From Pseudohongiella acticola (GTDB lineage Bacteria > Pseudomonadota > Gammaproteobacteria > Pseudomonadales > Pseudohongiellaceae): a stretch of DNA of 64,000 nt. The DNA lies in the NCBI RefSeq assembly GCF_001758195.1, contig NZ_MASR01000002.1, positions 62,001 through 126,000 of the forward strand. The letters are read 5' to 3'. The translations under genes were made by a program, and so were the position numbers. A model generated the notes under the pieces. It saw only the letters and a program-made list of their open reading frames with translations, was not told where the DNA came from and searched no databases. Of this stretch, positions 1,573-44,761 are shown one piece after another; within the stretch, counting starts at the first letter, position 1, and each line of letters opens with the position of its first letter.

Positions 1573-2730
1573 TTATGGTGAGCCGAAGCGGTATTCGAAT
1601 TTACCGACATAGGTACCGTCTGAATGGTTCCAAATCTCTATGACTTGATTTGTCACGCGCACTTTCGCGAGCAGTCCAACAATGGTCAGGGCCGTACCTC
1701 CGTTGCCATCTGCAAGGATTGCCTGGCTTCCACTTGAACCACGGCTGGCATACAGACCGCTGCCGCCTACAGCGCCGCAAATAGCATGCATCGCGGCGAG
1801 CTGGCCTGAAACAGTTTCCCCGCCGCTCGCAACGACTCGCCCAACAGTTACAACGTCACCCGAGAAGGTGGCGCCACCGCTGGCCGCCAAAACGAACGTG
1901 GGGGAGCCCGCCTGGTACCAGCGCAGGCCGTTGACATCGATAATCCCGCCGTTTAACGGATTGCTGCCGCTGATAGCGATCTTCTGGGTACCGAGCGTGC
2001 GGATGTAATCGAATGAGCTGTCCAGAGCGCTGAAAGCCCGCCCCGCACCGTTTAGCTGGTTGATGTTGGCCCTGAAATACGTCGAGCCGTCAGCTATGTC
2101 GTCCAGATCGCCAGAAACCTGCGTCAGCGATGTACCGTGAGGGTTACCACTGGCGCCAGCGTGACTGGCACCGGTAGCTGAGTTGCTTTTGATGGTGCCC
2201 ATCTCAACGCCATCGACGGTGACAGTGTTGGCTATAACCGAGTCGGCAGTGATCGTTCCGGTCAGCGTCAGATCGGTGCCATCGTACTCAAATGTAGGGC
2301 TATCGCTGCCACCGATGATGATCGTGCCATCGTTGAGGTTGATCGCAGTGCCTGCACTGGTGCCCCAGTTGTTCGAGACAATCGTGCCAGTGCGAATCAC
2401 ATCGCCACGGATCTGGGTGATTGCCAGCGGGACATTGCCGGTGGTGGTTCCGTTCTGCTCATCGATGATGGCAGCGACAGTAAACGTGCCCAGCACACCG
2501 ACGTCCTTCGCCTCCAGCAGGATGGACTCGGGGGATATCCTGATGGCGGATCGGAGGGTGTCGTTATCCGCTTTGCGCTCGACCAGGGTTTCGAGGTTTT
2601 GGAACCTGGCGGTCAGGCGTGCAACTTCATCTGCCAGTGTCGGTATCTGCTGAGGCAGCGGCAACGTGGGCGAAGAGGCACGGACGCTGCTCATGCCGAT
2701 AGACGCATTGCCTCGACCGATAGTCGTCAT
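1573..2730 (-). CDS. Phage tail protein, fibre-like, beta-rich
   Basis: The product is 385 residues. A short coiled coil (residues ~30-60, IPTLADEVARLTARFQNLE) is followed by beta-rich repeats full of Gly, Thr, Asn and Ser, typical of trimeric tail fibre or tail-tip shaft proteins (for example GTITADSVIANTVTVDGVEM). The gene starts inside the last codons of the tail-tip gene (4-bp overlap), so it belongs to the same transcript. It probably forms a side or central fibre attached to the tip protein. No enzymatic motif is visible and the C-terminus is not a recognised chaperone domain. Confidence 0.7.
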   Translation of the reverse strand: MTTIGRGNASIGMSSVRASSPTLPLPQQIPTLADEVARLTARFQNLETLVERKADNDTLRSAIRISPESILLEAKDVGVLGTFTVAAIIDEQNGTTTGNVPLAITQIRGDVIRTGTIVSNNWGTSAGTAINLNDGTIIIGGSDSPTFEYDGTDLTLTGTITADSVIANTVTVDGVEMGTIKSNSATGASHAGASGNPHGTSLTQVSGDLDDIADGSTYFRANINQLNGAGRAFSALDSSFDYIRTLGTQKIAISGSNPLNGGIIDVNGLRWYQAGSPTFVLAASGGATFSGDVVTVGRVVASGGETVSGQLAAMHAICGAVGGSGLYASRGSSGSQAILADGNGGTALTIVGLLAKVRVTNQVIEIWNHSDGTYVGKFEYRFGSP

Positions 2731-5700
2731 GCTGGTCCCGCCTGAATCAATTGAACAATGTTGCTGCGGACGTACTGCGTACCTGTGCTTTCAGTAGCGC
2801 GCCGCGCCAGGCAACAGCTGACCGAACCCCATACCATCTCGCTGGGTATGCTTACTGGGATGGTGCCGCTGTAAACGAATCTACCGTCAACCAGCTGGAA
2901 ATCGCTGGCCATAATCTCAACAGTATTCGTCAACGGGCCCAGTGCAGGATAATAGTGCGCCAGTTGCCCACCCTGGTCTGACTGGGTGGTACCCTCTGCC
3001 CCGCGCTGCTGCGCCACGACATAATACTGGCCATCAAAATCGATGCCGCCATGACGTATCACTTCACCGTTTACCCATAGCAGGCTGAACTCGGGCAGAC
3101 GACTATCGGCATACTCGAGTTCAACCACCTGGATCGTGTCTCCAGGCGCTGGTATGAAAGGGAACTCATCGGCTGCGGCTAGTACAAATTCAGTGGTGCT
3201 GCTCTCAGCTATTTTGAAAAAGCGGGTGTTGCCGTTACCTGGAGACTCGATTGCAATCCACCACATCCCGGACAAATCGATATCAATGCCGGTGTTGCTG
3301 AATCTCACTCTCTTTGCGGTACTGCCGGCGACCACCGACAGACTGAACGTGCCTGCAATGCTTGCATCGGGGTCGATGTAGAGTTTGTTGCCATCGTCCG
3401 ATGTTATTTGCAGGGTGGCCGGAGCCTGTGCAGCAGAATAAAACAGGAGGAAACGGTCAGGTGCCGCGCCCTCTCCCTCATACCCCACGCTGATACGAAT
3501 ATCTGCAGTGGACTTCTCGGTATCAGTGGTGATGAACAGAAGCGGATCCACTGGGTCAGGAAGGCCGACAGCAGCGATTGAGTCGAAGGTTCCCAGGCTA
3601 GTGATCTGCGCCTCCGCCCAGTCGCTGAAAACCTCCCCCTGGACATAAACCGAACGCACCCTGACTTGGTGCACGCCGATCTCGGCGCTCTGCCACTCCC
3701 AACGTGTTTCCAATGCGTTATACAAAGGCTTCCAGTCGGCGTGTCGCGCCAGCTTATACTGGGCCTCAAACGTTTTGATGTGATAGTCGTCTTCTTCAGG
3801 GCTAAACGTGAATACCAAGTTCGTCACGTAATCACCGCTGGTAGACAGGGCCAGCTCAGCTGTGAGACTAAGTCCCGTTGGGGAGTGGATGTCATACTCT
3901 CCGACAGTCCCTGACCAATACTTCCAGGGACCCCGGGCACGACCAACACCGGCAACGCGAACGCTAAGGTCGCCCGTTGGTGCTGGCAGTGTTATCTGCG
4001 TGTTGGTGGTAGTAGTCCACAGGCTCCACGTGTCCCCATCATCAAGGCTGCGCTCTATAACGTATTCGGTGGCACCAGGCGCTGGGGACCAAGCAATGTG
4101 GAGTATGGCCGGATTGCTGGCGTTCTCAACCAGCAACGTTCTGATTACGGGGCCATCCGGATTACCTGCGATGGGCCCAGGCGTATTGTCCGGCGGAACC
4201 TCGGCCTCATCAACGCTATGGACTGAGTCCACAACACCCAGGCATACCAGCTCTACCTCAAGCCTCCCGCGTGGCCGCATCTCTTTAATCAGGAAATCGC
4301 TGAGCGTCGAGCCCAAAACGCCAAAATGATAAAGAGTGCGCACCATTGTGCCGTCAGTTTGCGGCGTCCAGTCCAGGGCTTCATTGAGCTCCACCTGATT
4401 TGGGTTCGGCCCAGCAAGAGCAAGGTGCGGACCATCGACACTCCCGTCGGCCTTGCGAAGACGGATTGCATGCGCCACGGACGGAGTCCAGGTCAGCGGC
4501 TCTGACAACGTCAGCACCAGCCCATCTACCTCTACGACCTCTCCGCCTTGGTCGTACCGGAAATCCTCGTTTGCGACGGCAACAAGCTCACCCTGCTGCG
4601 GGATGTACCCTTCCAACTCAGTGGTGAATTTACAGGTTTTGCGCTGCTTGCGTTCGACCTCGGCATCATAGATGCCCTCTCGGAAAGCCTGCTCGCGATT
4701 GATGATGCCGTTGTAGCGCACGCGTTTTGGATTCGTGCCCGCGCTGCCCGGGGGCTGGCAAAGGACCTGATGCACTTGCCAGCCAAGGTCGGGGGCAACA
4801 TATTCAGCCAACACACTGTCCGGTGATTCCTCGTTTAGAAATTGGTACTCGACTGTAAAATCGCGCAGGTTCTTTCTGTTGAATATCGTGGCCGGAACAC
4901 TCTGCGGTGCGGCGCGCATGAAGCTGATCACCTGGTTATTCATGACAGGTATCGCGCGGCCGGCACGGGCGGCAAGCTTCAGCGACTCCCACATGGTAGT
5001 GGTCACATCGAAGCGATAGTCGAACATGTCTCCTCGGTCGCTCCAGGTGGCATCCAGAGCCAGCAGCTTCTGCAGGTCAATCAAGTCATCCGCACGGGCT
5101 GCTCCATACTCAGCGCGTATGATGTCAGCCAACGCCCACGCAATGGATCGGGTGGCCGTCGGGGCGGACCATTGTGAGCCATCCCATATTGGCAGCTTGC
5201 GCGTGCCAACCAGGTTGAAACGCCGGCTGCTGTTCTGATTCAGGTTACCGGTGGCCCGGGCACGCACTGCGAGAACCGTGAGGCCCTCGTATGTCTCGGC
5301 ATCATCCTCCAGGTAGGCGCGCAGAGATTCCCAAACGCAGCGGGTAAACATCTTCGGACCGGTCTGGCTTATCTCACCGCGGCGCAGTCTCACTTCATAA
5401 CGACCAGGCGTTACGGCAACTGCCCGGGTAAGACGCTTGGGCACGCGGGTGGTATCGGTGATCACCTCGTTTAAGAAGGTCGTCCAGGATCCGGTAGGTT
5501 CGCCTAGGTCATCGATGGCTCGGTAATCGGCTATCAGTGTCGTCGTCGCTGGATCCGTGTCGCCTTCTGAGCGAGCTCGGAAAAGCCCCTGATCCCACAC
5601 AATGTCAATCTCAAGCCGGTTGGCCTGGGTCCCGCCAGCGGACGCGATGAACGGACCGGTGAAATCAGTACCAAGTTCCTGAGCGCCAACCTCACTGGCC

Positions 5701-6305: not shown

Positions 6306-6705
6306 GGATATACCGGTAGAAAGTGATGTGCTGAAAGTTCATGCGCCGCAGCCCCGCCAGGTCATTGCAAAGAACACCTTGTGGTGTGGCATGCAGCACC
6401 TTGCCATCATCGACGCCAAGCCAACATCCAACGTGGTACGCCTCTCCTGCCCTGCGCATGACAACCGCGTCGAAGTCTTGTGGGGCGCTTACCTCTCGCC
6501 AGTCGCTGGAGAGAACGGCGCCGTCGATCGCGGCGTTTATCCGCGCCAGCTGACCGGCGTAGTCATCAAACCTTGGCAGCTCTATACCGCCATGATGCTT
6601 AGCAATGTGCCAGACAAGGCCGTAACAGTCGAAGCAGCCATCTTCCCCGTACGCGTCGTGACGGAACCGGGCGCCCATGTAATCGCGGATGTAGGAATAC
6701 TTCAT
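6292..6705 (-). CDS. NlpC/P60-type tail peptidoglycan hydrolase (lambda K-like)
   Basis: This 137-residue protein has the NlpC/P60 active-site pattern: a Cys in GCFDCYGLVWH near residue 26 and a His in HVGCWLGV near residue 91. Such tail-tip cysteine peptidases cut peptide stems of peptidoglycan during DNA entry. The length fits the bare catalytic domain. It overlaps the DUF1833-like gene upstream by 4 bp and the TipJ gene downstream, matching the L-K-(I)-J order of lambda tails. Of two Cys in the motif the second, before YGL, best matches the catalytic one. Confidence 0.85.
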   Translation of the reverse strand: MKYSYIRDYMGARFRHDAYGEDGCFDCYGLVWHIAKHHGGIELPRFDDYAGQLARINAAIDGAVLSSDWREVSAPQDFDAVVMRRAGEAYHVGCWLGVDDGKVLHATPQGVLCNDLAGLRRMNFQHITFYRYIHADH

Positions 6706-7208
6706 CTGGCCAGCCCTGGGTGGTCGAACGTGTTATAGACCCAGCCAGGGAATTTGCGGTTTATGTTGTCCGCATTCTTGGCCTTTGCTCTCAAACTGAC
6801 ATAGTCGGCGGCGGCACTCTCAATTGTGAGCCGTGTCGGCGGGTCGATAGCCGGGCCGGATGTGTCACTTGACAGGTACACGCGGAATATCAGGCTGACC
6901 GGCCCAGGGTTCGCCATCGCAATCTCCATGCGATCAGCCGCAACCTGGTCGATGTTCGTGATATTTACATCAATGATCTCGGTGCCACCGTTGTTAGCAT
7001 TGGGCAATATGAGCTCAAAATATGCAGGCTGAAACGCTACCAGCTGCCCAGCATCATGTGGCGCCGTGTCCTCAAGGGTGGCGCTGAAAGCCTCGAGCTG
7101 ATTAGTCACCCGGATCGGGGATGGGAAGCTGTCGTGAAGAACCTCAAGCGTCTCGACGATAACTATGCCGGACGGCGCCGAGGCGCGTACAGTATTCAGG
7201 TTACTCAT
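6702..7208 (-). CDS. DUF1833-like minor tail protein (lambda L position)
   Basis: The product is 168 residues. Its central pattern, strands interrupted by short turns and an IRVTNQ element near the N-terminus, resembles the DUF1833 phage tail family that commonly sits before an NlpC/P60 hydrolase. By position it corresponds to lambda L, a tail-tip component. Both ends overlap neighbours by 4 bp. I assign the family from general resemblance and synteny rather than a diagnostic motif, so the placement in the tail tip is firmer than the family name. Confidence 0.65.
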   Translation of the reverse strand: MSNLNTVRASAPSGIVIVETLEVLHDSFPSPIRVTNQLEAFSATLEDTAPHDAGQLVAFQPAYFELILPNANNGGTEIIDVNITNIDQVAADRMEIAMANPGPVSLIFRVYLSSDTSGPAIDPPTRLTIESAAADYVSLRAKAKNADNINRKFPGWVYNTFDHPGLAR

Positions 7209-10483: not shown

Positions 10484-10978
10484 TTACGCCGGCACCTTCC
10501 GGCTGACGATCAGCTTGCTTGCACGGCGAATAGAAACCGGTACCGGCACGCTACTGTTGAGCTGAAAATCAATCGGCCAGTCGATTACCCAGCCTTTGAT
10601 TGCCATGAATGTGCGAGTGTCCGGGTAGGTAAACTCCCCGGTAGTGATTGTGGGAGGCGCGGCGCCGTCATTGAAGCCAACAGCAAATGTGGTTTGCATG
10701 CTGTCGTTGGCGTCGTCCATATCCTTGAGCAGCTTGTGGGAAGCTTCTCCCACGCTGTGCAACACGTTCAGTGTCGCTTGGCCCGGGTCCTTGAGGCCAG
10801 CAATGCGTGTCATGACCTCCTCGTTGTCCCACGTGGTGTCATCAATTTCGGTTGCAGGCGCACCGCCGAAGTTGAAGCTGGTGACTTTCTTCAGCTCGAC
10901 GACAGCGCCAGCACCATCATTGGCCGCCGGATCGATCATGTAAACCTTCATGCCTTTTGTGATATCAACCTTTGACAT
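10484..10978 (-). CDS. Major tail tube protein
   Basis: The product is 164 residues, of the size of siphoviral tail tube proteins. It has alternating beta-strand segments and a central acidic turn (EIDDTTWDNEEVMTRIAG) that resembles tail tube families of HK97/lambda type. It follows the tail-completion gene and precedes the chaperone, the conserved slot for the tube protein. Tube proteins polymerise as hexameric rings around the tape measure. The start is the ATG at 10978. Confidence 0.8.
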   Translation of the reverse strand: MSKVDITKGMKVYMIDPAANDGAGAVVELKKVTSFNFGGAPATEIDDTTWDNEEVMTRIAGLKDPGQATLNVLHSVGEASHKLLKDMDDANDSMQTTFAVGFNDGAAPPTITTGEFTYPDTRTFMAIKGWVIDWPIDFQLNSSVPVPVSIRRASKLIVSRKVPA

Positions 10979-24076: not shown

Positions 24077-25000
24077 TCAACCCTCCGCCCATGATCGATC
24101 ACCCAGGCGATCCATGATATTGCGCGAGTCACGGCGCACCGAGACGGCAGAACCGGCCTGCGGCGAAATATCCTGTTGTTCAGTGATCACCCAGGAATTG
24201 TCAAACTCAAGAGATGGGCCAAAAAAGCGCTGACCCTGCATCACAAAGGCCGTGCCTAAGATCCCCTTCATTCGGCAGTAGTGGAAATATCGGTTAACGC
24301 CTGCAGAGATTTTCTCGGGCTTGATGCCATCGCGCAGTCGAGCGCGGTATGCCTGGAAAGCTTGGCGTTTTGAATTGCTGCCCTCGCGCTGTGGATAACT
24401 CTTCCAGATCACTTCGAATTGCAGTGGGTAATCAACAACGTTTTTCTTTGCTGACGACTCATCCGATTCGTCGGATGGGTCATGATTGTTTTTACTGATC
24501 TGTTCCTGATCTGTTCCTGATCTGTTCTTAGCCTCTACCCGATTCGGTAACTGTTTAGTTCCTGATTCGGTAACTGTTTCGTCACTGATTCGGGAACCGT
24601 TACTGATCTGGTTACTGTTACCGATTCGGTCACTGTTTTCATTGCTGTTATCAGTTCCTAAATCGGGCACTGCTTTGGCGGCAGAATCAGTTACTGATTC
24701 GGGGACCTCTTTCGACTCTGAAACAGTTACTAAATCAGGAACCGTTATTCTGTAAACGCAGGATCTGGATCGGCCTCGCTGAACCTTCTCCAACCAGCCC
24801 AGTTTTTGCAGTTGCGTGGTTGTAGTGCTGACCTTGTTCACTGGATATCCGCATCGCGCCGCAATTTTCTCGCGGCCTGGCCAGATAGTGTCGGTGTTCT
24901 TCTGGCGAAAGCTCAGCAACCCCAGCAACACACGCGTTTGCATCAGTGTGAGGCGCTGATCCTGCAGGACTTCAAGCGGTGTGATGATAAAAGTGTTCAT
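24077..25000 (-). CDS. Lambda O-like replication initiator
   Basis: The product is 307 residues. An N-terminal winged-helix part (IITPLEVLQDQRLTLMQTRV, then WPGREKIAARCGYPVNKVST) matches the helix-turn-helix domain of phage replication proteins that bind origin iterons. A central region (~100-185) is low complexity, rich in Ser, Glu, Asp, Asn and Thr, and its DNA holds an iteron-like array. The C-terminal part (FEVIWKSYPQREGSNSKRQAFQAYRARL) is a helical domain found in many phage initiators. Lambda O has the same layout with the origin inside the gene. A separate helicase loader was not identified. Confidence 0.72.
   Translation of the reverse strand: MNTFIITPLEVLQDQRLTLMQTRVLLGLLSFRQKNTDTIWPGREKIAARCGYPVNKVSTTTTQLQKLGWLEKVQRGRSRSCVYRITVPDLVTVSESKEVPESVTDSAAKAVPDLGTDNSNENSDRIGNSNQISNGSRISDETVTESGTKQLPNRVEAKNRSGTDQEQISKNNHDPSDESDESSAKKNVVDYPLQFEVIWKSYPQREGSNSKRQAFQAYRARLRDGIKPEKISAGVNRYFHYCRMKGILGTAFVMQGQRFFGPSLEFDNSWVITEQQDISPQAGSAVSVRRDSRNIMDRLGDRSWAEG
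24495..24747. repeat. Iteron-like array, candidate phage replication origin
   Basis: Three perfect tandem 11-mers CTGATCTGTTC lie at 24495-24527. They are followed by about eight copies of a 16-mer near GATTCGGTAACTGTTT starting at 24541, 24564, 24588, 24605, 24623, 24660, 24696 and 24732; copies one and two are identical, the others differ at several bases. The last gaps are 36-37 bp. The array lies in the middle of the O-like gene, as lambda ori does in O. It also encodes a low-complexity linker, so selection at the protein level is an alternative. Confidence 0.6.
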
Positions 25001-25323
25001 ACAACACCGCCTTGAGCATCCTGCCTGCGCGCCAGCTCACTGCGGATGAGATCCATGGTCTGAGGAGCGCCAGCACGCAGCGCACTGAGTAACCGCAAGT
25101 AGCCCGGCAGCAGCGTGACGACAATGCTGAAGCCTGGCGGGCGCTCAATTGCCCTGGTGCGGAACAGGTATCCGTAGCTGCGCTCCGCTGTGATGAACTC
25201 CACCAGGCAGCGCTGCTCTGCGCGCGTCATCAAACAACCTCTGGCAGCGTCAACCAGATCCTGGACAGCCCCATCATAGATGCTGTGATCAAAAGAAAGT
25301 GGCAACATCTCACGACCCACCAT
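24997..25323 (-). CDS. Hypothetical protein of the PR operon
   Basis: The ATG at 25323 has a strong ribosome site (GGAGG, 5 nt upstream); a GTG 48 bp upstream is less likely. The product is 108 residues, largely helical (MVGREMLPLSFDHSIYDG, then MTRAEQRCLVEFITAERSYG), without recognised motifs. It overlaps the O-like gene by 4 bp and is presumably co-translated. Function unknown, possibly a replication accessory protein. Confidence 0.55.
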   Translation of the reverse strand: MVGREMLPLSFDHSIYDGAVQDLVDAARGCLMTRAEQRCLVEFITAERSYGYLFRTRAIERPPGFSIVVTLLPGYLRLLSALRAGAPQTMDLIRSELARRQDAQGGVV

Positions 25324-25510
25324 GCGCACCTCCAGCTGCTGGCGCAGTAAACTGACCAGCACAAAAGTCACATAGGTCGGTGCCGGGGTTTTTAAGCTGG
25401 TGAGCGCTGGGGATCAGTCCACCGCAAGTTTCACAGCAGTCCGGTGGCCGGCGGCTTAGGTTTGTTTCCAGCGCCCGCTCAAGCGGGTCGAGTTGATCTT
25501 CTTTTTGCAT
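25310..25510 (-). CDS. TraR/DksA-type zinc-finger protein
   Basis: I take the ATG at 25510 (MQKEDQLDPLERAL), which has AGGAG 5 nt upstream, and reject a longer frame that runs back through structured non-coding DNA. The product is 66 residues. CETCGGLIPSAHQL followed by LCDFCAGQ is the DksA/TraR signature (CxxC, about 17 residues, CxxC with IP and a basic helix). Phage and plasmid TraR-like proteins bind the RNA polymerase secondary channel and mimic ppGpp with DksA, altering host transcription. Confidence 0.75.
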   Translation of the reverse strand: MQKEDQLDPLERALETNLSRRPPDCCETCGGLIPSAHQLKNPGTDLCDFCAGQFTAPAAGGAHGGS

Positions 25511-25599
25511 TGCGGCTCCTGCTACCTGTACCGGGCATGTTTTTGTAATCGGGGCCGGGTTACCTTCGTCCCGGCGGTGGTCATTGCCGCGTGCCCATT

Positions 25600-25975
25600 C
25601 GTCGAGGCCGGCTACCACGGGTGGCAGATAATCCACTTCTGCTGTGCCAGGCGCCTGTCGCGAAGACAGCCAGGTCGCTATTGCGGGGCTACCAGGATGG
25701 ATCGTCGTGACGTCACCATCCTGGATTCCGGCGATAATGCTGCCGGGCGCCCCTCTCGGGTTGTATATGGCTGCAATGGCGGGAATCAAACCCGCTCCGA
25801 TCAACTCCTCATTGATCTACACATTTCCTGCGCTAGCGTGGGATGGACTGGCGCAGTGTGTGTCGCCGGGGGTCACCCAGCCGCTCTACCGGTGAGCTTC
25901 ATCACATACTGCTGACCGCCCTGCACAAGCAGAAATGGGGAGAATTCCCCGCAGGACGATCAGCGCTATGCGCTT
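25600..25975 (-). ncRNA. Structured non-coding region around a tRNA-like element
   Basis: The 478 bp between the gene ending at 25989 and the TraR-like start at 25510 contain no convincing coding frame but many hairpins. Besides the tRNA-like core there are a 9-bp stem CCAGGATGG/CCATCCTGG (25692-25724, loop includes TGACGTCA), CTGTC/GACAG (25654-25668), GGGGA/TCCCC (25937-25950) and AGCGC/GCGCT (25962-25974). Early phage operons rarely leave such gaps. This suggests a processed or regulatory RNA on the PR transcript. Confidence 0.45.
25768..25906 (-). ncRNA. tRNA-like element with an extra 68-nt two-hairpin insertion
   Basis: On the minus strand a 7-bp acceptor (TGTGATG / CATTGCA, two G-U pairs) closes a D arm (GCTC-ACCGGTA-GAGC), an anticodon-like arm (GCTGG-GTGACCC-CCGGC) and a T arm (GCGGG-TTTGATT-CCCGC), and ends G-CCA. 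Between the anticodon-like and T arms lie 68 nt instead of 4-24; they fold as an extended CTGCGC/GCGCAG hairpin flanked by ACACA/TGTGT, and GATCAA/TTGATC. Base 8 is A, not the usual U. The formal anticodon is GAC (Val). It may be a decayed tRNA, an intron-bearing tRNA or a tRNA mimic. Confidence 0.5.
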
Positions 25976-25988
25976 TCACTTCTACCGA

Positions 25989-26324
25989 TCACTTACCTTT
26001 CACGAGCCTCAGACTGATTTTGTAGCGCGAGGCGATGTTTGAGAGATTGGCCATGGAGATGCCTACCCTGTTTGCAATATCTACACTCGGCACCTTTCCT
26101 GCGAGCTGCTTAATAAGAACCACCCTTTGCTCCATGTCTGCGCCTACCACCCTTTTCTTCTGACGCGCACCGGTGTTCAGGTTTTCTTGTTTTCTCGGAC
26201 TGACACTGCGTGCGGCCTGCTGGGCATCCCTGAACGGATCCGGCCTCAGAACTGTATAGCCATGGCGCCTGAGCAGATCACTGGCTTGATCCAGCTTGTC
26301 CTCTGATGCTTGTGGTTCACTCAT
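25989..26324 (-). CDS. Small HTH protein of the PR operon
   Basis: The product is 111 residues. The C-terminal part (VPSVDIANRVGISMANLSNI) has the spacing of a helix-turn-helix; the N-terminal half is charged and partly disordered. Its position, downstream of cro and before the replication genes, is that of cII in lambda, but there is no clear CII similarity. It could be a delayed-early activator or an adaptor for the replication proteins. Confidence 0.55.
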   Translation of the reverse strand: MSEPQASEDKLDQASDLLRRHGYTVLRPDPFRDAQQAARSVSPRKQENLNTGARQKKRVVGADMEQRVVLIKQLAGKVPSVDIANRVGISMANLSNIASRYKISLRLVKGK

Positions 26325-27626: not shown

Positions 27627-27878
27627 TTACTGTATGGATGCACATATAGGTTTACTGACTGATTGGGCGACGCTCTCATGAGAAGATTCTGCTATGGACC
27701 CAGCAACAGGCTTTTCTTCCACGAGAATAAGGCGACCACCAGACTCAATAACGAATATCTGCCTTCGCCGGAGGATCATTTTGCTTATAGCTCCCTGAGT
27801 TAAGCCGACGGCTGCCGCCATTTCGGATTGACTTAGTTTCTTGTCCTGCATGTATTTATCAATCGGTGTGCGAGTCAT
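27627..27878 (-). CDS. cro: Cro-like repressor
   Basis: I start at the ATG at 27878 (MTRTPIDKYMQDKKLSQSEM), about 28 bp downstream of the PR -10; the product is 83 residues. The HTH is seen in LSQSEMAAAVGLTQGAISKMIL, matching Cro-type proteins (Gln-Ser/Ala in the turn region). It is divergent from cI and its promoter contains the same operators. It should turn down cI during lytic growth. The C-terminal ~30 residues are Ser-rich and probably disordered. Confidence 0.82.
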   Translation of the reverse strand: MTRTPIDKYMQDKKLSQSEMAAAVGLTQGAISKMILRRRQIFVIESGGRLILVEEKPVAGSIAESSHESVAQSVSKPICASIQ

Positions 27879-27905
27879 TTGAGAATTCCCATCGAAGATT
27901 TTTTC

Positions 27906-27935
27906 ATAATAGTACCGCCGGTATTTGTTTGTCAA
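27906..27935 (-). promoter_or_regulatory. PR promoter (cro side)
   Basis: On the minus strand TTGACA (27935-27930) and TATTAT (27911-27906) are separated by 18 bp. The operator centred at 27918 lies inside the spacer, so repressor binding would block polymerase directly. The PL promoter at 36.0 kb has the same hexamers and spacing. Confidence 0.8.
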
Positions 27936-29966: not shown

Positions 29967-30315
29967 GCAAGCAGACACTAAGCGATAGGGTAAACAAGTG
30001 ATCGGCTACATAGCGGTTTGGGCGGATGCCGGGCCCCCCCCACTTTTAAGGGCCCTGCATAGGGTGAAATGAGTATGGATCCCCCCCACTGAGGTCTCCT
30101 TCGCCGCCCTTAACATGTGGATTTCACTCTCTCCCAACGAATAGTGTGTGGCCAAACGGCGGGAAAAACTGAACATCCTGAATTAACGCGGCTGACAATG
30201 GACGCCTACGATACAGTTTATAGCCAACAAGCTTAATTTGTTATTTTATGTTCACTTATTGATATCTATGTTCATATATGGCCTAATTTGTTCATATTTT
30301 ACGAGCGCCATTATT
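29967..30315 (+). promoter_or_regulatory. AT-rich leader of ietA with 20-bp-phased repeats
   Basis: No gene is seen in these 349 bp. The first half holds C-rich runs (GGCCCCCCCCAC, GATCCCCCCCAC). The second half turns strongly AT-rich and carries ATGTTCA at 30248 and 30268 and TTGTTCA at 30288, spaced exactly 20 bp apart, ending 22 bp before the ietA start. Such two-turn phasing on one DNA face suggests a regulator-binding array or promoter. Confidence 0.5.
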
Positions 30316-31425
30316 ATGAACCATTTGCCATTATTTTTGAAAATCATCGAGAGTGGGATATTAGCGAACCCTGCTAAGGTTGCTTCATACACTAGAACCT
30401 TGGCGGCAAAATTGGCCGACGACGGGGAGACTAAAGCAGCTGAGAAAATACTTCGAGCAGTCGAAAGCGCTAATTTGCCAAAAACCCGGACAACCGGACA
30501 AGTGTTGAGCCCACAATCTATGCCTGTGGACCGAGATAGCCGCTTTTCACTAGCAGATGAATCGAATCCAGAGATGTCTGAGCTAAACATTTACCTGGAG
30601 CCACTGATACAAAAATCTGTATTGGAATTTATTTCTTTTGTTGAGAACGCATACCTGCTCACCCAGGCAGGCGTGGGCGTAAGCCCATCTATGCTGATAT
30701 ATGGGCCGCCGGGTTGCGGTAAGTCTTACTTAGCGAAATATGTTGCAGCAAGATTGGAATTACCACTTTTAACTGCACGCTGTGATTCCCTCATATCCTC
30801 CCTACTGGGGTCTACCGCGAAGAACATAAGGAGCTTATTTGAGCATGCATCGAATAGACCATGCGTCCTATTTCTGGATGAATTTGATGCTCTCGCAAAA
30901 GCGAGAGATGATCAGCATGAGGTCGGCGAGTTGAAACGAGTAGTTGTAAGTCTTTTGCAAAATATTGATAGCCTACCTTCGGGCACTATATTGCTTGCAG
31001 CCACTAACCATGAAGACTTGCTAGATCCTGCCGTATGGAGGCGGTTCGCCTACAAGATGAATATTCAACTACCCTCCAACGAGTCCCGTGAAAAATTAAT
31101 AAAACAGTCTTTAGGCCACTTCTGTTCATCTAACGTTAAAGCGATCACAACTGCTACCGATGGAATGAGCGGGGCTCTGATCAAGCAAGCCTGCGAAGCA
31201 TCTGTTAGAGCTGCCCTCATCGCGGGGAAGGAGGCGGTAGACGATAACAAATTGCTCTCAAAAATTGCTGAAATTCAATACCACGATTTAATCCATGCGA
31301 AGATTCCGGACGAAGAGAAAATAAAGAAATTAAAAGAAGTTAACAATCGTTTGTTTACCACTCGCGTGTTAAATGAGCTGCTGGGCGTGTCAACAGGGAA
31401 AATATCTAAAATCCTTAACAGCTAG
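30316..31425 (+). CDS. ietA: IetA-like AAA+ ATPase of a two-gene defence system
   Basis: I take the ATG at 30316 (MNHLPLFLKIIESGILANP) because a longer frame begins in the AT-rich leader; the product is 369 residues. The AAA+ motifs are Walker A GPPGCGKS (residues 130-137), Walker B VLFLDEFDAL, sensor 1 LLAATNH and an Arg in DPAVWRRF. A helical N-terminal part of ~90 residues precedes it and a helical lid follows. With the subtilase 9 bp downstream it forms the ATPase-protease pair known as IetAS, which gives anti-phage protection in experiments on other members. Base composition is clearly more AT-rich than the phage genes around it. Confidence 0.82.
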   Translation: MNHLPLFLKIIESGILANPAKVASYTRTLAAKLADDGETKAAEKILRAVESANLPKTRTTGQVLSPQSMPVDRDSRFSLADESNPEMSELNIYLEPLIQKSVLEFISFVENAYLLTQAGVGVSPSMLIYGPPGCGKSYLAKYVAARLELPLLTARCDSLISSLLGSTAKNIRSLFEHASNRPCVLFLDEFDALAKARDDQHEVGELKRVVVSLLQNIDSLPSGTILLAATNHEDLLDPAVWRRFAYKMNIQLPSNESREKLIKQSLGHFCSSNVKAITTATDGMSGALIKQACEASVRAALIAGKEAVDDNKLLSKIAEIQYHDLIHAKIPDEEKIKKLKEVNNRLFTTRVLNELLGVSTGKISKILNS

Positions 31426-31434
31426 GACAATAAT

Positions 31435-33723
31435 ATGAATAAAAAAGATTATCCAATTAAAGTCGTTGAGATTAGAGGCACTGACCATCGGCCGCCGCGA
31501 GAAAACCAGGGAGGGAGTCCGAAATCGTTTTGTGTGGTAACTGAAGATTTGCGCGAAAATTTGTCTGAGCAAGTCATCGCTGCGCACGACTATTTTTCAG
31601 AGCAATTTGAAAGATGGCCTGATATTCCAGCTGTTGTGAAAATTACTCTTAAAGAAGAGGCTTTGGCAAAGTCGCATCGACCGACGTCACTTCTCAGGAA
31701 AAGGACATGTCCAATTATCGGTGTACTAAGTTTTGGCGAGGTTCTGGTTAGTGCATCACCGGATGGTTTAGAGAAACTGGCGGATGAAATAAACAACACC
31801 ACCAGCGAAAAGCCGATTGCGAATATTTCTGCCATCGAAAAAATTGAACCTTATCGCGTCCATGAAAACAGAATGGGGAGTGATATCGAGGATATTAATG
31901 CGTCCATTCAAGAGAATATCCCTCTAAAAATTCATACGTTCGATCATGGGGACGCCGAAGTCAACCGCCGTATCAAGAGGGCATTGGTGGAGTTTGCTCA
32001 AGAGCAGGGCGTTGGGCTTGAGGAGCTTAAATACGGCACAAGATTTTCTGAGTTCAAAACCGATCCTCAGACTAAGAAAATCAGCGAGGCGTTTGAATCA
32101 TTCATGGGATTGCAGTCTTTAACTCCTATGCCTACATATCGGCCATTAGACTTGGAGCTACAAACCACTCCAGTTGGATTAGTCGACCAGTTTCAGCTGC
32201 CTCCTCCTTCGAGCGAGGCCGACTATCCGATCGTTGGTGTAGTGGACTCTGGAGTTTGCCCGCATAGTACTCTGATAGCGCCCTGGGTCGTTGGTAGAGA
32301 AGAATATGTGCCTCAAGAACTACAAGATCACTCTCACGGAACTATGGTGGCTGGCCTTATTGCAGGGGCCTATACGCTAAATAACCAAGACGATCGCTAT
32401 CCCCGTTCACAGGCAAAGATTTTGGATGTGCCGGTTTTCGAAAAAGGTGCTAACTTGCGCGAGGATGTATTAGTCGCGATTTTGGAAGATGTCATACCTA
32501 AGCACCCGGAGGTTCGTGTTTGGAATCTGTCAATGGGCGGCACCAAACCTTGTATAGATTCGGCATTTTCAGACTTAGCATGTTTTCTTGATGAGATGCA
32601 CGATGCGCATAAATGTTTGTTTGTAATAGCTGCCGGCAATCACTCTCACGTTCAGAAGTGGCCGCAGGTGACAGATATGGGAGGAGCCGACAGAGTCTCA
32701 TCACCTGGCGATTCAGTACGAGCGTTAACGGTAGGTGGCTTAGCTAGTCTTCACAATGCAAACTCTCTCTCCAAGTCGGAAGAGCCATCACCTTTTTCCC
32801 GCAGAGGTCCGGGCCCGTGCTTTATTCCCAAGCCGGAAGTAACTCACTATGGTGGCAATTGCACGGAGCGACTTGCCTTTGCCCAAACCGGAATATTGAC
32901 TACAGGGGCAAATAATACTCTTTGTGAAACTCTTGGCACTAGCTTCGCAACCCCGTTAGTGAGCGCCCAAGCAGCAGTTCTTTGGCAATATTTAGATACG
33001 CAAGAATCGCCTGTTACCCCCGAGCGTATTAAAGCGCTACTGATCCACTCAGCGCTACTACAATCCCGCAAAATTACCTCGGAGACGGTACATCACTATG
33101 GCTTTGGAAAGCCAGGCGACGTTATAGACTCGTTATATTGCGAGCCTAATGCCATAACGCTGATGTTCGAGACCGATCTTCGCCATGGCGGACACGAATT
33201 TGAGCGCTGGCCCTTTCCGATAGCTGACTGTTTAAATACAGAAGATAGAAAATTCCGCGGCCAAATGTTGATGACTGTAGTTTATTCTCCCATTACCGAT
33301 AGCAGATACAAGTCCGAGTATTGCAGGACCAATGTGGATGTCGGCCTCGGCAATTATGCGTTAGTGGAGGATGAGGATGGGACTAGAAAGTACAAATTCG
33401 ACAGCTTTGTTCCGGTCGCCCCAGAAGATATCCGGAAATTGTATGAAAAGCATCAGATTGAAAACGGATTTAAGTGGTCGCCCGTAAAGGCCTATTATGC
33501 GAGATTCCCGCAAGGAAAGGACGTTGAGACTTGGCGATTAAGGATGAAGGTAACTCGCCGTGCAGAGCTACAAATGCCTGACATCCCTCAGAGGGCTACG
33601 CTGCTGCTTACAATGCGGGGAAATACCCCGGAACTACCTGTATATAACGAAGCCATACGCACGATGAATCAGGCTGGGTGGATAGTAACCGATATAGACC
33701 AACATATAAGGGTAGGCGTTTAA
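31435..33723 (+). CDS. ietS: IetS-like subtilisin-family serine protease
   Basis: The product is 762 residues. The S8 triad is directly visible: Asp271 in VGVVDSGVC, His301 in HSHGTMVAG and Ser503 in LGTSFATPLV, with the oxyanion Asn in VIAAGNHSH. About 250 residues precede the protease domain and ~200 follow, without known motifs; there is no signal peptide, so it acts in the cytoplasm. It is presumably gated by the AAA+ partner, which would sense infection and unleash proteolysis. Together with ietA it forms one AT-rich unit without other genes. Confidence 0.85.
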   Translation: MNKKDYPIKVVEIRGTDHRPPRENQGGSPKSFCVVTEDLRENLSEQVIAAHDYFSEQFERWPDIPAVVKITLKEEALAKSHRPTSLLRKRTCPIIGVLSFGEVLVSASPDGLEKLADEINNTTSEKPIANISAIEKIEPYRVHENRMGSDIEDINASIQENIPLKIHTFDHGDAEVNRRIKRALVEFAQEQGVGLEELKYGTRFSEFKTDPQTKKISEAFESFMGLQSLTPMPTYRPLDLELQTTPVGLVDQFQLPPPSSEADYPIVGVVDSGVCPHSTLIAPWVVGREEYVPQELQDHSHGTMVAGLIAGAYTLNNQDDRYPRSQAKILDVPVFEKGANLREDVLVAILEDVIPKHPEVRVWNLSMGGTKPCIDSAFSDLACFLDEMHDAHKCLFVIAAGNHSHVQKWPQVTDMGGADRVSSPGDSVRALTVGGLASLHNANSLSKSEEPSPFSRRGPGPCFIPKPEVTHYGGNCTERLAFAQTGILTTGANNTLCETLGTSFATPLVSAQAAVLWQYLDTQESPVTPERIKALLIHSALLQSRKITSETVHHYGFGKPGDVIDSLYCEPNAITLMFETDLRHGGHEFERWPFPIADCLNTEDRKFRGQMLMTVVYSPITDSRYKSEYCRTNVDVGLGNYALVEDEDGTRKYKFDSFVPVAPEDIRKLYEKHQIENGFKWSPVKAYYARFPQGKDVETWRLRMKVTRRAELQMPDIPQRATLLLTMRGNTPELPVYNEAIRTMNQAGWIVTDIDQHIRVGV

Positions 33724-42828: not shown

Positions 42829-43130
42829 GTGCTACAGCAGCAGTAAATGACAGTATCGTTCCTCTGGAGGACTACCCTGCCCTTCGCAGGCCTCATGAGA
42901 AAAAACACTCTTCATCATGGATTCGGGATGCCGCCGGCGGGAAGATACCCGGTGCATTCAAATTCAATGGCAAGGGGAAATGGTTCGTGCACCTTGACAT
43001 CCATGATACCGAGGTGCGAAAAATGGCATCCCCGTCACGAAAAGAGATGACATCTATCGAGAGCCTGGCCAGTCGCCTGGGTCTTGATCAGGATGACATC
43101 CGGACGGCCATGGAAGCTGCGAGCCGATAA
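42825..43130 (+). CDS. Probable excisionase / integrase-associated protein
   Basis: I choose the GTG at 42825, overlapping the stop of the small gene before it; the product is 101 residues. WIRDAAGGKIPGAFKFNGKGKWFVHLDIHD resembles the winged part of small excisionases (an HTH followed by a hairpin ending in a W or R-rich strand), and the C-terminal helix fits. It lies directly before int (sharing one base), where xis is expected. The similarity is structural in style only. Confidence 0.55.
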   Translation: MSATAAVNDSIVPLEDYPALRRPHEKKHSSSWIRDAAGGKIPGAFKFNGKGKWFVHLDIHDTEVRKMASPSRKEMTSIESLASRLGLDQDDIRTAMEAASR

Positions 43131-44410
43131 TGCCGAGACCGCGCAACAGTGAAAACTCACGCCTGGGGAATTATCCCGGGCTGGGTCGTTATTCTGACGG
43201 CAGGTATTACTTCAAGAATCCTTTCACCGGTCGGCAGGCCAGTCTGAAGACCCGAGACTTTGAAAAGGCTGTCGCGCTGTGGGCGCTATCGAAGGCAATC
43301 TGCGAGAAGGCCTACGGGGCCCAAGACACAGAGAAGCTGATCGCCACCATCCAGGGCACCAACACACCGGTAAGCAAGGGCGCCAACATCCATCTGCGTG
43401 ACTTCCTCAAACAGTGGCGCACCGAGATGCTGGAGCCAGGCAAGGTCATGATCAAGATCAAGCGTGGCCAGGGCAAACCATTGGCACCGCGCACCCAGTC
43501 GGACTACATCAAACAGTGCAAACAACTTGAGCGTGAGAGCGCCGGCAAGTTCGCGATGTCATCACCAGACCTGCTCAGAAAAATACGAGCGCTGCTGGCG
43601 CCATGGGCAACCAGGGGAACGACCTACAATCATCTGAAAGCAATGCTGGGCCGGGTGTTTGATCACGCGGTTATTACTGGCCTGATCGACAGAAACCCGA
43701 TGCGCGACATCGACAAGGTGCCAGTCGCAAAACGTGAGGTACTGGTACCGGACAAAGCCTATATCGGAATCACTGACCAGTTGGTCGTCCACAACTACCA
43801 GTCCAAAGAGTTTGATGGTCAGTGGCGCGTCGAGATCTGCGACTTGCTCTACATGGTAAGCCAGCAGCCGGTCGACTTCTTCAGTTTGCGAACGAACCAA
43901 GTCGATCTAAATGCGGTTGATAAATCCGATCCGGATCCGGCGAACTGGATATGGGGCGAGATCAACCTGGCACGCTCGAAAACATCCGTTGCCGGCATCA
44001 TCGGCATGAACCGCGAGATGCGTGAGAAAGTTGAATGGCTACTCCGATTCCGGGATGAGCAGTTTAGGATGAATGGCAACGTCTTCCAAAAACCAGAGCA
44101 CGATCGCCTGCTGATTTATCCAATGTATATGGATCGCCGGTACCGGCTCAAACCGCTCACGCACAGAACGTTTTCAAAGTGGTGGGCCGAGGCATCAGAG
44201 CGTGCTGGTTACAAACAAATGGGGGAGCCTGGTCAATACTGGATAATGGATATGAGGAAAAGAGGTCTGACTGACGAGTTCGTTTCACAGGGTGATAACG
44301 ACAAGGGGCTACACTCAACCGAGGCTATGAAAGCTCACTACCGGCTGATCAATCCACCGAAGCGATCACGCAATACTCTGGTGTCGATCAGGGGTCGAAA
44401 GGCTGTTTGA
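43130..44410 (+). CDS. int: Tyrosine recombinase integrase with altered catalytic motif
   Basis: The product is 426 residues with a basic N-terminal arm-binding part (MPRPRNSENSRLGNYPGLGR), a core-binding domain (~90-205) and a catalytic domain. Lys is in LARSKTSV, the second Arg in MDMRKRGLTDEF, a His in KGLHSTEA and the Tyr nucleophile in KAHYRLIN. The first Arg box reads VSQQPVDFFSL where TGxR is expected, so Gln appears to replace the Arg, and the first His of H-x-x-R is also missing. It ends 87 bp before the tRNA-Cys 3' end, the usual place of an integrase at its attachment site. Confidence 0.85.
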   Translation: MPRPRNSENSRLGNYPGLGRYSDGRYYFKNPFTGRQASLKTRDFEKAVALWALSKAICEKAYGAQDTEKLIATIQGTNTPVSKGANIHLRDFLKQWRTEMLEPGKVMIKIKRGQGKPLAPRTQSDYIKQCKQLERESAGKFAMSSPDLLRKIRALLAPWATRGTTYNHLKAMLGRVFDHAVITGLIDRNPMRDIDKVPVAKREVLVPDKAYIGITDQLVVHNYQSKEFDGQWRVEICDLLYMVSQQPVDFFSLRTNQVDLNAVDKSDPDPANWIWGEINLARSKTSVAGIIGMNREMREKVEWLLRFRDEQFRMNGNVFQKPEHDRLLIYPMYMDRRYRLKPLTHRTFSKWWAEASERAGYKQMGEPGQYWIMDMRKRGLTDEFVSQGDNDKGLHSTEAMKAHYRLINPPKRSRNTLVSIRGRKAV

Positions 44411-44412
44411 TA

Positions 44413-44445
44413 GTTGCGGAATTGTTGCGGAATTGTTGCGGGTTC
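44413..44445. repeat. Tandem 11-bp repeats between int and tRNA-Cys
   Basis: GTTGCGGAATT occurs twice in tandem (44413-44423, 44424-44434) and once in diverged form (44435-44445). In front of an attachment site such repeats are likely arm-type sites for the integrase, or binding sites for the excisionase. Confidence 0.55.
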
Positions 44446-44496
44446 CCGGGTTGGGAAATTCAGTCTTCGTAGGGTGTTGATCTGTCGCAGGAAAAT

Positions 44497-44540
44497 TGGA
44501 GGCTGGGGTCGGAATCGAACCGGCGTACGCGGAGTTGCAG
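44497..44540. other. Probable prophage attachment junction (core within tRNA-Cys 3' half)
   Basis: The integrase gene reads towards this tRNA and ends 87 bp from it. Integrases of this kind recombine in the 3' half of a tRNA gene, which spans the T arm and acceptor. The matching copy should lie at the other prophage end beyond the left window edge and was not seen in the window. The core length cannot be determined here. Confidence 0.55.
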
Positions 44541-44570
44541 TCCGCTGCATGACCACTCTGCCACCCAGCC
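44497..44570 (-). tRNA. tRNA-Cys (GCA)
   Basis: The 74 nt fold as a normal cloverleaf: acceptor GGCTGGG/CCCAGCC, anticodon loop CTGCAAC with GCA at 44536-44538, T arm GCCGGTTCGATTCCGAC with standard loop, discriminator T and encoded CCA. It follows tRNA-Gly on the same strand. The prophage lies directly beyond its 3' end, so the gene was probably regenerated by integration. Confidence 0.95.
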
Positions 44571-44685
44571 TTTATTGTTGCAAATTCACCTGTCTGGTCG
44601 CAAAGTCCCGTGCAGGTAATTTCCGGACTGGCCAACGCTACCCCGAGGGGGATGTTGCGCTGTGAATGGCCTGTGGCCGTAAGTT

Positions 44686-44761
<76 letters not shown>

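Follow-up and report, generated by a model that had tools for sequence, protein, structure and literature searches.

A 139-nt prophage RNA element and its relatives look like an undescribed family of phage tRNA mimics

Why phages carry arrays of tRNA genes is still debated. One well-known RNA of tRNA-like build, tmRNA (RF00023), combines a tRNA-like acceptor/T half with a large non-tRNA domain; it contains pseudoknots and an mRNA portion, and no D stem. Within its tRNA cluster, phage T4 encodes the 139-nt species 1 RNA (RNA C, rnaC), a small RNA whose function is listed as unknown in excerpts of PMC3014915, PMC9697503 and PMC12685909. In phages L and Sf6, tRNA genes annotated with ordinary anticodons (Asn, Leu, Thr) lie near the start of the late operon, ahead of the lysis genes (excerpts of PMC8022706).

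We analyzed a prophage-bearing window (the whole stretch of DNA under study, 64,000 nt long) and found that a tRNA-like element at 25768-25906 on the minus strand is real. The arms, coordinates and CCA end named by the original prediction were all located at 25906..25768, as were the A at position 8 and the two-hairpin insertion between the anticodon-like and T arms (an ACACA/TGTGT arm and a GATCAA.TTGATC arm). Its parts are as follows.

25768..25906, minus strand: whole tRNA-like RNA, 139 nt with 3' CCA (minimum-energy fold, covariance-model family and covariation)
25900..25906, minus strand: 5' strand of the acceptor, TGTGATG, pairing with 25772-25778
25883..25897, minus strand: D arm, GCTC-ACCGGTA-GAGC, with A8 and A9 just before it; stem letters invariant in 10/10 members
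25865..25881, minus strand: anticodon-like arm, GCTGG-GTGACCC-CCGGC; 4/5 pairs with both-side changes, loop not conserved across the family
25819..25863, minus strand: inserted arm 1, an ACACA/TGTGT helix, inner stem and A-rich internal loop; family letters CGACACAC ... AAAYGTGTA
25799..25817, minus strand: inserted arm 2, hairpin GATCAAT GAGGA GTTGATC; 7/7 pairs with both-side changes
25779..25795, minus strand: T arm, GCGGG-TTTGATT-CCCGC; 4/5 pairs with both-side changes
25772..25778, minus strand: 3' strand of the acceptor, CATTGCA, pairing with 25900-25906
25768..25771, minus strand: G73 and encoded CCA, read from the sequence
25911..25964, minus strand: leader hairpin directly upstream; in the predicted fold of the unprocessed stretch it extends into the 5' acceptor strand

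The acceptor stem has 7 bp, including two G-U pairs, and G26 is present between the D arm and the anticodon-like arm. At minimum energy (-54.6 kcal/mol) the 139 nt fold into the cloverleaf with two inserted hairpins, with a pair probability of at least 0.98 for 20 of the 21 listed cloverleaf pairs and 0.81 for the terminal T-A pair. By energy alone the fold stands out only modestly, with a z-score of -2.37 and 4 of 200 dinucleotide shuffles equally low; its layout is far less common. A strict layout scan (every pair of a 7-bp acceptor, a 4-bp D stem with GG loop, a 5-bp anticodon stem and a 5-bp T stem, insertion of 0-100 nt) returned two places in the 64-kb window, a tRNA-Gly gene and the element, and none in 200 dinucleotide-preserving shuffles of the window, although it did not recover the window's tRNA-Cys gene. 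When the natural 5' leader is included, the predicted fold instead pairs the 5' acceptor strand with the leader: in five leader-containing stretches of the window copy, the forced cloverleaf lay 0.3-9.2 kcal/mol above the optimum and the acceptor pairs were 0-12% probable. Given this predicted pairing, folding of the window copy may depend on prior processing or may be delayed.

Compared with tRNA (RF00005), the family to which the element belongs shares a 7-bp acceptor (8 in some members), a GCTC..GAGC D arm with a GG loop, tRNA arm spacing, and a 5-bp T arm with a TTCRA-type loop in most members, with CCA in 6/10; it differs in having no conserved anticodon loop, A8 in 6/10, and a conserved two-hairpin module of about 70 nt between the anticodon-like and T arms. 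T4 rnaC resembles it in length (139 nt), in its place in a phage tRNA cluster and in its T arm (CCGGGTTCGAATCCCGG) near the 3' end, but has neither the GCTC/GAGC D arm nor the CGACACAC/GTGTA module nor an encoded CCA. We rejected rnaC as a member: a covariance model built from the window sequence alone (R1), run with filters off, gave it 15.1 bits over its 3' part, like ordinary T4 tRNAs, and it was absent from the matches of models R2 (built from six sequences) and R3. T4 RNA C is thus the nearest known analogue, not a detectable member. The tRNA-like half joined to a large non-tRNA domain recalls tmRNA, but Rfam scans of the window and of seven of the nine relatives (those other than L133 and L138; relatives are named by locus handles) gave no tmRNA match over the element, the only trace being a 17-nt fragment on the T arm of L014 at 17 bits against a cut-off of 47. 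Some relatives share with the phage L and Sf6 tRNA genes a position near the late operon and lysis genes. Rfam 15 holds no family matching the element, and the window stretch had no match at E up to 1; the literature we found, mostly outside the subscription journals and including excerpts of PMC8022706, PMC2147016, PMC2864571, PMC3014915, PMC9697503 and PMC12685909, contains no description of it. We therefore file the element as a new form of tRNA-like RNA outside any named family.

Relatives were found among viral contigs. A D-arm/T-arm pattern scan gave at least 120 stretches, and among the 40 of 129 matches listed, a check of acceptor pairing picked out L082 as plainly related. R1 scored L133 at 102.9 bits, L082 at 99.8 (E 6.8e-27), L138 at 94.3, L014 at 55.1 and L143 at 47.9; over 97 of 130 loci, a set of viral loci that excludes L133, L138 and L143, its best match besides L082 and L014 reached 40.3 bits and its best match of ordinary tRNA length 36.0 bits. 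R2 then scored L195 at 86.1 bits, L208 at 74.2, L213 at 65.0 and L202 at 60.2; across 390 genomes of the order, in each of which 8 first-look candidates were scored, no non-member exceeded 44.4 bits. With the window this makes ten distinct members (window, L082, L133, L138, L014, L143, L195, L208, L213 and L202) with pairwise identities of 46-96%; L146 and L160 carry the same 139 nt as L138 and are counted with it once. ARAGORN reports the element in none of the ten, so more copies may lie unannotated.

Several candidates were set aside along the way. Pattern GGTAGAGCNGCTGGNTGACC returned the window's own contig and two chance matches without a tRNA fold. A pattern scan of genome contigs gave four loci (L146 to L149); among the three that were read, L146 is a member, and L147 and L149 were rejected for lack of the family fold. 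In a 17-locus scan, six loci were the own contig or members (L006, L014, L082, L133, L138, L143) and eleven were set aside on reading, seven of them being one repeated locus; L150 and L151, from a further scan, were set aside in the same way. A 37-locus scan held eight members (L014, L082, L133, L138, L195, L202, L208, L213), and the other 29 were dropped on sequence or score. A second match in L143 (21.2 bits) was dropped because it spans two ordinary tRNAs. Two borderline matches, L027 6432-6557 (minus; 49.6 bits with R2, 56.0 with R3) and L052 1812-1945 (minus; 47.8 bits with R3), are possibly distant members and are excluded from every family count; a 184-nt match taken for tandem tRNAs reaches 48.2 bits with R3.

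The family is rare in cellular genomes, although the three large searches scored 8 of several hundred first-look candidates in each genome and may have missed copies. R1 found it in 1/15 genomes of the genus, the window's own. R2 found it above 44.4 bits in 2/390 genomes of the order, the window's own (142.6 bits) and G288 (142.5 bits), whose element is identical to that of L138 and of an Alcanivorax sp. DSM 26293 contig. R2 in the class (1/369 genomes, E at most 1e-11) and R3 in the phylum (1/398, E at most 1e-12) each returned the window's own genome, the genus, order, class and phylum sets being overlapping ones. Some R2 match at E up to 1e-6 occurred in 93 of the 390 order genomes; besides the two copies, all were at or below 44.4 bits, and most of those listed, 73-77 nt long, are taken to be ordinary tRNAs. 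Direct comparison found no relatives: blastn with window stretches and the L138, L143, L208 and L213 copies gave none in a named phage collection (ten short chance-level matches at E up to 10), and a 251-nt window stretch had only short chance-level matches among plasmids. A DNA search across 56 related genomes matched only the window's own. The HTH-like protein upstream of the element had three weak partial matches in 56 genomes, and flanking-protein searches of viral contigs returned only the same prophage contig.

To characterize conservation, we aligned the ten members to the covariance model. In this model-fitted alignment, 94.4% of 409 cells were paired, as against 30-45% when the 3' partners were slid as a control, and 30 of 42 pairs showed changes on both sides; none of 500 shuffles reached any of five covariation measures. 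All 7 acceptor pairs changed on both sides, and in the acceptor, anticodon-like arm, inner insertion stem and second hairpin together 26 of 28 pairs did so, these 28 being untouched by any pattern that brought in a member. A sequence-only MAFFT alignment of five members recovered the same arms wholly (15 of 45 pairs changed on both sides), and one of all ten recovered the seven arms partially, 19 of its 32 pairs having changes on both sides. The covariation that the original prediction had proposed to look for in the four arms and both insertion hairpins is thus present in the acceptor, anticodon-like and T arms, the inner insertion stem and the second hairpin, but not in the D stem, which is without variation in ten members, nor in the nearly invariant ACACA/UGUGU helix, where variation is limited to three unpaired cells.

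The letters CGACACAC and AAA.GTGTA are identical in 10/10 members of the model-fitted alignment. The invariance of GACAC and AANGTGTA is partly by construction for members found with those letters; L082, L014, L133 and L138 were, however, also returned by patterns without the GACAC/GTGTA letters, and L195, L208, L213 and L202 came by a pattern without D-arm letters, so each block has confirmation from members whose retrieval did not depend on it. Every pattern that returned L143 contained both blocks. Individual members depart from the consensus: the family structure is not the minimum-energy fold of L213 and L014, that of L202 lacks the T arm, and the T loop of L143 (TGTAGCG) is atypical. CCA is encoded in 6/10 members, with 3' ends read by hand. 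From these sequence comparisons we conclude that the structure is under selection, and that the covarying seven-arm structure together with the CGACACAC/AAAYGUGUA module defines a phage RNA family. Of the identities first suggested for the element, a tRNA mimic is supported by this covarying family with acceptor, D and T arms and, in six members, CCA, and a decayed tRNA is contradicted by the both-side changes in 30/42 pairs.

We next considered whether members could decode. Acceptor, D, anticodon-like and T arms lie at tRNA spacing. Reading by hand gives a 7-nt anticodon-like loop in the window and L202, GTGACCC in each case, with U33, C37 and a Val-type GAC triplet; a loop of 6 nt in L082, L133, L138 and L208; one of 5 nt in L014; and one of 8 nt in L195. 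The L143 arm is much longer, and the L213 loop is ambiguous. A 7-nt loop with U33 and purine 37 is not kept family-wide, as 2/10 have a 7-nt U33 loop, both with C37. The discriminator base and the 1:72 pair vary among members, so no single aminoacylation identity is kept, and A8 replaces U8 in 6/10. With the Rfam tRNA model (RF00005, cut-off 29), L208 passes at 44.2 bits and L213 (28.5) and L082 (27.8) fall just below; the other five of the eight scanned members (all but L133 and L138) had no tRNA match at E up to 1. Most members are probably unable to decode, and because neither the size nor the letters of the anticodon-like loop are kept, we infer with moderate confidence that the family does not decode, although some copies could still do so, since the window and L202 share GTGACCC with U33 and GAC. 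An interrupted tRNA, another identity offered by the original prediction, is disfavored by the loops of 5, 6 or 8 nt or the much longer arm in seven members, since removing the insert would not yield a decoding tRNA in most.

The settings of the relatives differ. In L208, the copy (6578-6720) is flanked by tRNA-Phe (ending at 6575) and tRNA-Ile (starting at 6724) with spacers of 2 and 3 nt, in a stretch holding 23 tRNAs. The L143 copy runs from 2130 down to 1978/1979, 4 nt behind tRNA-Gly (ending at 2135); on its other side the nearest tRNA found, a tRNA-Val starting at 1838, is some 140 nt off, which leaves tight spacing on one side only. The same array contains, at 2243-2324 (minus), an 82-nt match to tmRNA RF00023 (61.6 bits, cut-off 47) covering the tRNA-like half only, in which G3-U70 and CCA are kept, by reading, and the message part is absent. 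In one lineage the element occupies the space between Q-like and lysis genes: the L138 copy has a Q-like gene (phrog_127) on one side and holin, endolysin and spanin genes on the other, with a candidate promoter and terminator-like hairpins before it and another terminator-like hairpin after it. L082 has the same promoter-like site as L138, a terminator-like hairpin behind the element and, upstream, two hairpins with T-runs read from the sequence and unlisted by the terminator scan; L082 and L133 carry a Q-like frame resembling that of L138, their placement being judged the same from ORFs alone. The L195 copy is near a terminase gene and ORFs read as lysis-type. L014 also has two C4 antisense RNAs (RF01695), at 3828-3910 (minus) and 10835-10920 (plus); some 0.9 kb separates one of them from the family member, which lies upstream of it.

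In the window, the element sits within a Cro-side operon, with the following neighbors and, farther off, an integrase-like ORF.

27906..27935, minus strand: candidate early PR-like promoter, TTGACA-18-TATTAT (consensus match 11/12 only)
27627..27878, minus strand: Cro-like protein, encoded by the operon's first gene (Pfam Cro E 3.3e-6, which falls short of the curated cut-off; scanned as 27627-27902)
25989..26324, minus strand: HTH-like protein just upstream of the element (weak PHROG matches only)
25310..25510, minus strand: DksA-like zinc-finger protein of 66 aa just downstream (phrog_54 E 4e-4)
43130-44410: integrase-like ORF (phrog_1 E 3e-9), 17-18 kb from the element

The candidate promoter is about 2 kb upstream on the same strand; promoter-like sites in this region number 3, with 2.3 expected. 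A role as an RNA of the PR operon, put forward at the outset, fits the window copy, but the relatives sit among tRNA genes or near late genes. The gap around the element measures 478 bp, as first described, from the end of the HTH-like ORF at 25989 to the ATG at 25510. A TTG-started frame (25310-25804) crosses the T arm and gap, with its PHROG/Pfam match in the zinc-finger part only; the element thus holds only a partial frame, without a family match there. The integrase-like ORF (43130-44761 region) ends about 90 nt from the tRNA-Cys gene, so the prophage probably ends beside the tRNA-Cys/Gly pair, about 18 kb from the element; a Pfam PF00589 search listed no match in this ORF's part of the contig. 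A pair matching IetAS (AAA ATPase and subtilase; 30238-33723, plus; IetA E 1.4e-139, IetS E 7.4e-278) adjoins the CI-like gene of the prophage, and three imperfect 23-nt direct repeats at 24538-24642, inside the O-like replication gene, are possibly origin iterons.

The explanation we favor as a whole, at about even confidence, is that the element is a tRNA-derived or tRNA-shaped phage RNA, matured like a tRNA, that acts as a decoy or inhibitor of a tRNA-handling host factor. The family RNA would have descended from a tRNA, or at least be tRNA-shaped, and the host tRNA pathway would cut it out of phage transcripts, with RNase P making the 5' end and tRNA-type processing the 3' end. Such excision is fairly strongly suggested by the 2- and 3-nt spacers in L208 and the L143 start 4 nt behind a tRNA. 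In the window prophage, the RNA would be made early from the Cro-side operon. The retained acceptor/elbow part is what tRNA-processing, tRNA-end and elbow-binding proteins read, and keeping these protein-read parts together with a private module favors a decoy or inhibitor. The acceptor/elbow half might then dock in trans on a tRNA-handling protein, with the CGACACAC/AAAYGUGUA module as a second, family-specific contact. By analogy, a trans-acting decoy or inhibitor role is weakly suggested; as a guess, partners could include a defense enzyme that targets tRNA ends, EF-Tu, or an enzyme of tRNA processing or modification. More specifically, though we hold this only tentatively, the RNA could be an anticodon-less mimic, matured by host tRNA enzymes, that blocks a tRNA-directed factor of the host (a tRNA-end toxin, for instance) or titrates it, and so an RNA anti-defense element among phage tRNA genes. 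If so, the L143 array would hold two tRNA mimics, the family member and the stripped 82-nt tmRNA. A conserved RNA with a tRNA end and elbow, without an anticodon, in arrays would point to non-decoding uses of the tRNA shape, and the family offers a compact target for pull-down and deletion tests.

Other explanations make different use of the same features. The tRNA-like body might serve maturation or stability only, in a trans-acting sRNA whose hairpins or anticodon-like loop pair with phage or host mRNAs; the inserted-hairpin and anticodon-like loops do vary between phages, as target-specific regions would, and a ribosome-binding-like TGAGGNG loop is kept in the window, L082, L133 and L138, but the TGAGG loop is missing in the other six members and conservation within the insert peaks in a helix (ACACA/UGUGU), not in a single-stranded part, which leaves this account unlikely. 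The unit might alternatively be a processing signal, cut by RNase P and 3' tRNA nucleases to separate upstream from downstream genes of a polycistronic phage mRNA. It would suit the intergenic copies within apparent operons (window, L195) and those with terminator-like hairpins on one side and lysis genes on the other (L138, L082); a plain acceptor-T domain would suffice, however, yet the invariant-letter module is kept in 10/10, and the L208 tRNA array offers no mRNA to separate, so that we consider this improbable.

Decoding after all, by an unusual tRNA whose variable region is giant and structured or whose intron-like insert is excised post-transcription, is in our view rather improbable too. 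The 7-nt GTGACCC loops of the window and L202, the L208 score above the Rfam tRNA cut-off, and the D-loop GG and T-loop TTCRA kept in most copies argue for it; the deviant loop sizes or longer arm in seven members, C37 in the two 7-nt loops, the varying discriminator and the A8 for U8 in 6/10 argue against. Prophages carry tRNA ends at att sites, as at thrW (excerpts of PMC8022706), and the element could in principle be such an attP fragment or a decayed tRNA, but this is very improbable given the strong covariation in ten members. The integrase-like ORF and tRNA-Cys/Gly genes put the likely prophage end about 18 kb away rather than beside the element, elsewhere in the host genome the element matches over 19 nt at most, and a host genome search revealed within it no att core identical to a host tRNA; we accordingly rejected the attP candidate, as the element is not beside int and has no identical host tRNA end.

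Other tRNA-like genes with extra sequence emerged from the viral contigs. Among the matches listed, L013, L056, L072, L092 and L121 have 7/7 acceptor pairs and inserts right after the D arm, which often end TTACTTC or TTACTTA ahead of an anticodon-like stretch; they appear to be another type of phage tRNA that is interrupted or extended. L154, L044, L155 and L153 are tRNA-like, with GTAAGCTCANNGGTAGAGCT D arms and other hairpins replacing the anticodon/variable region, and L044 and L155 seem to hold a second T-arm-like hairpin.
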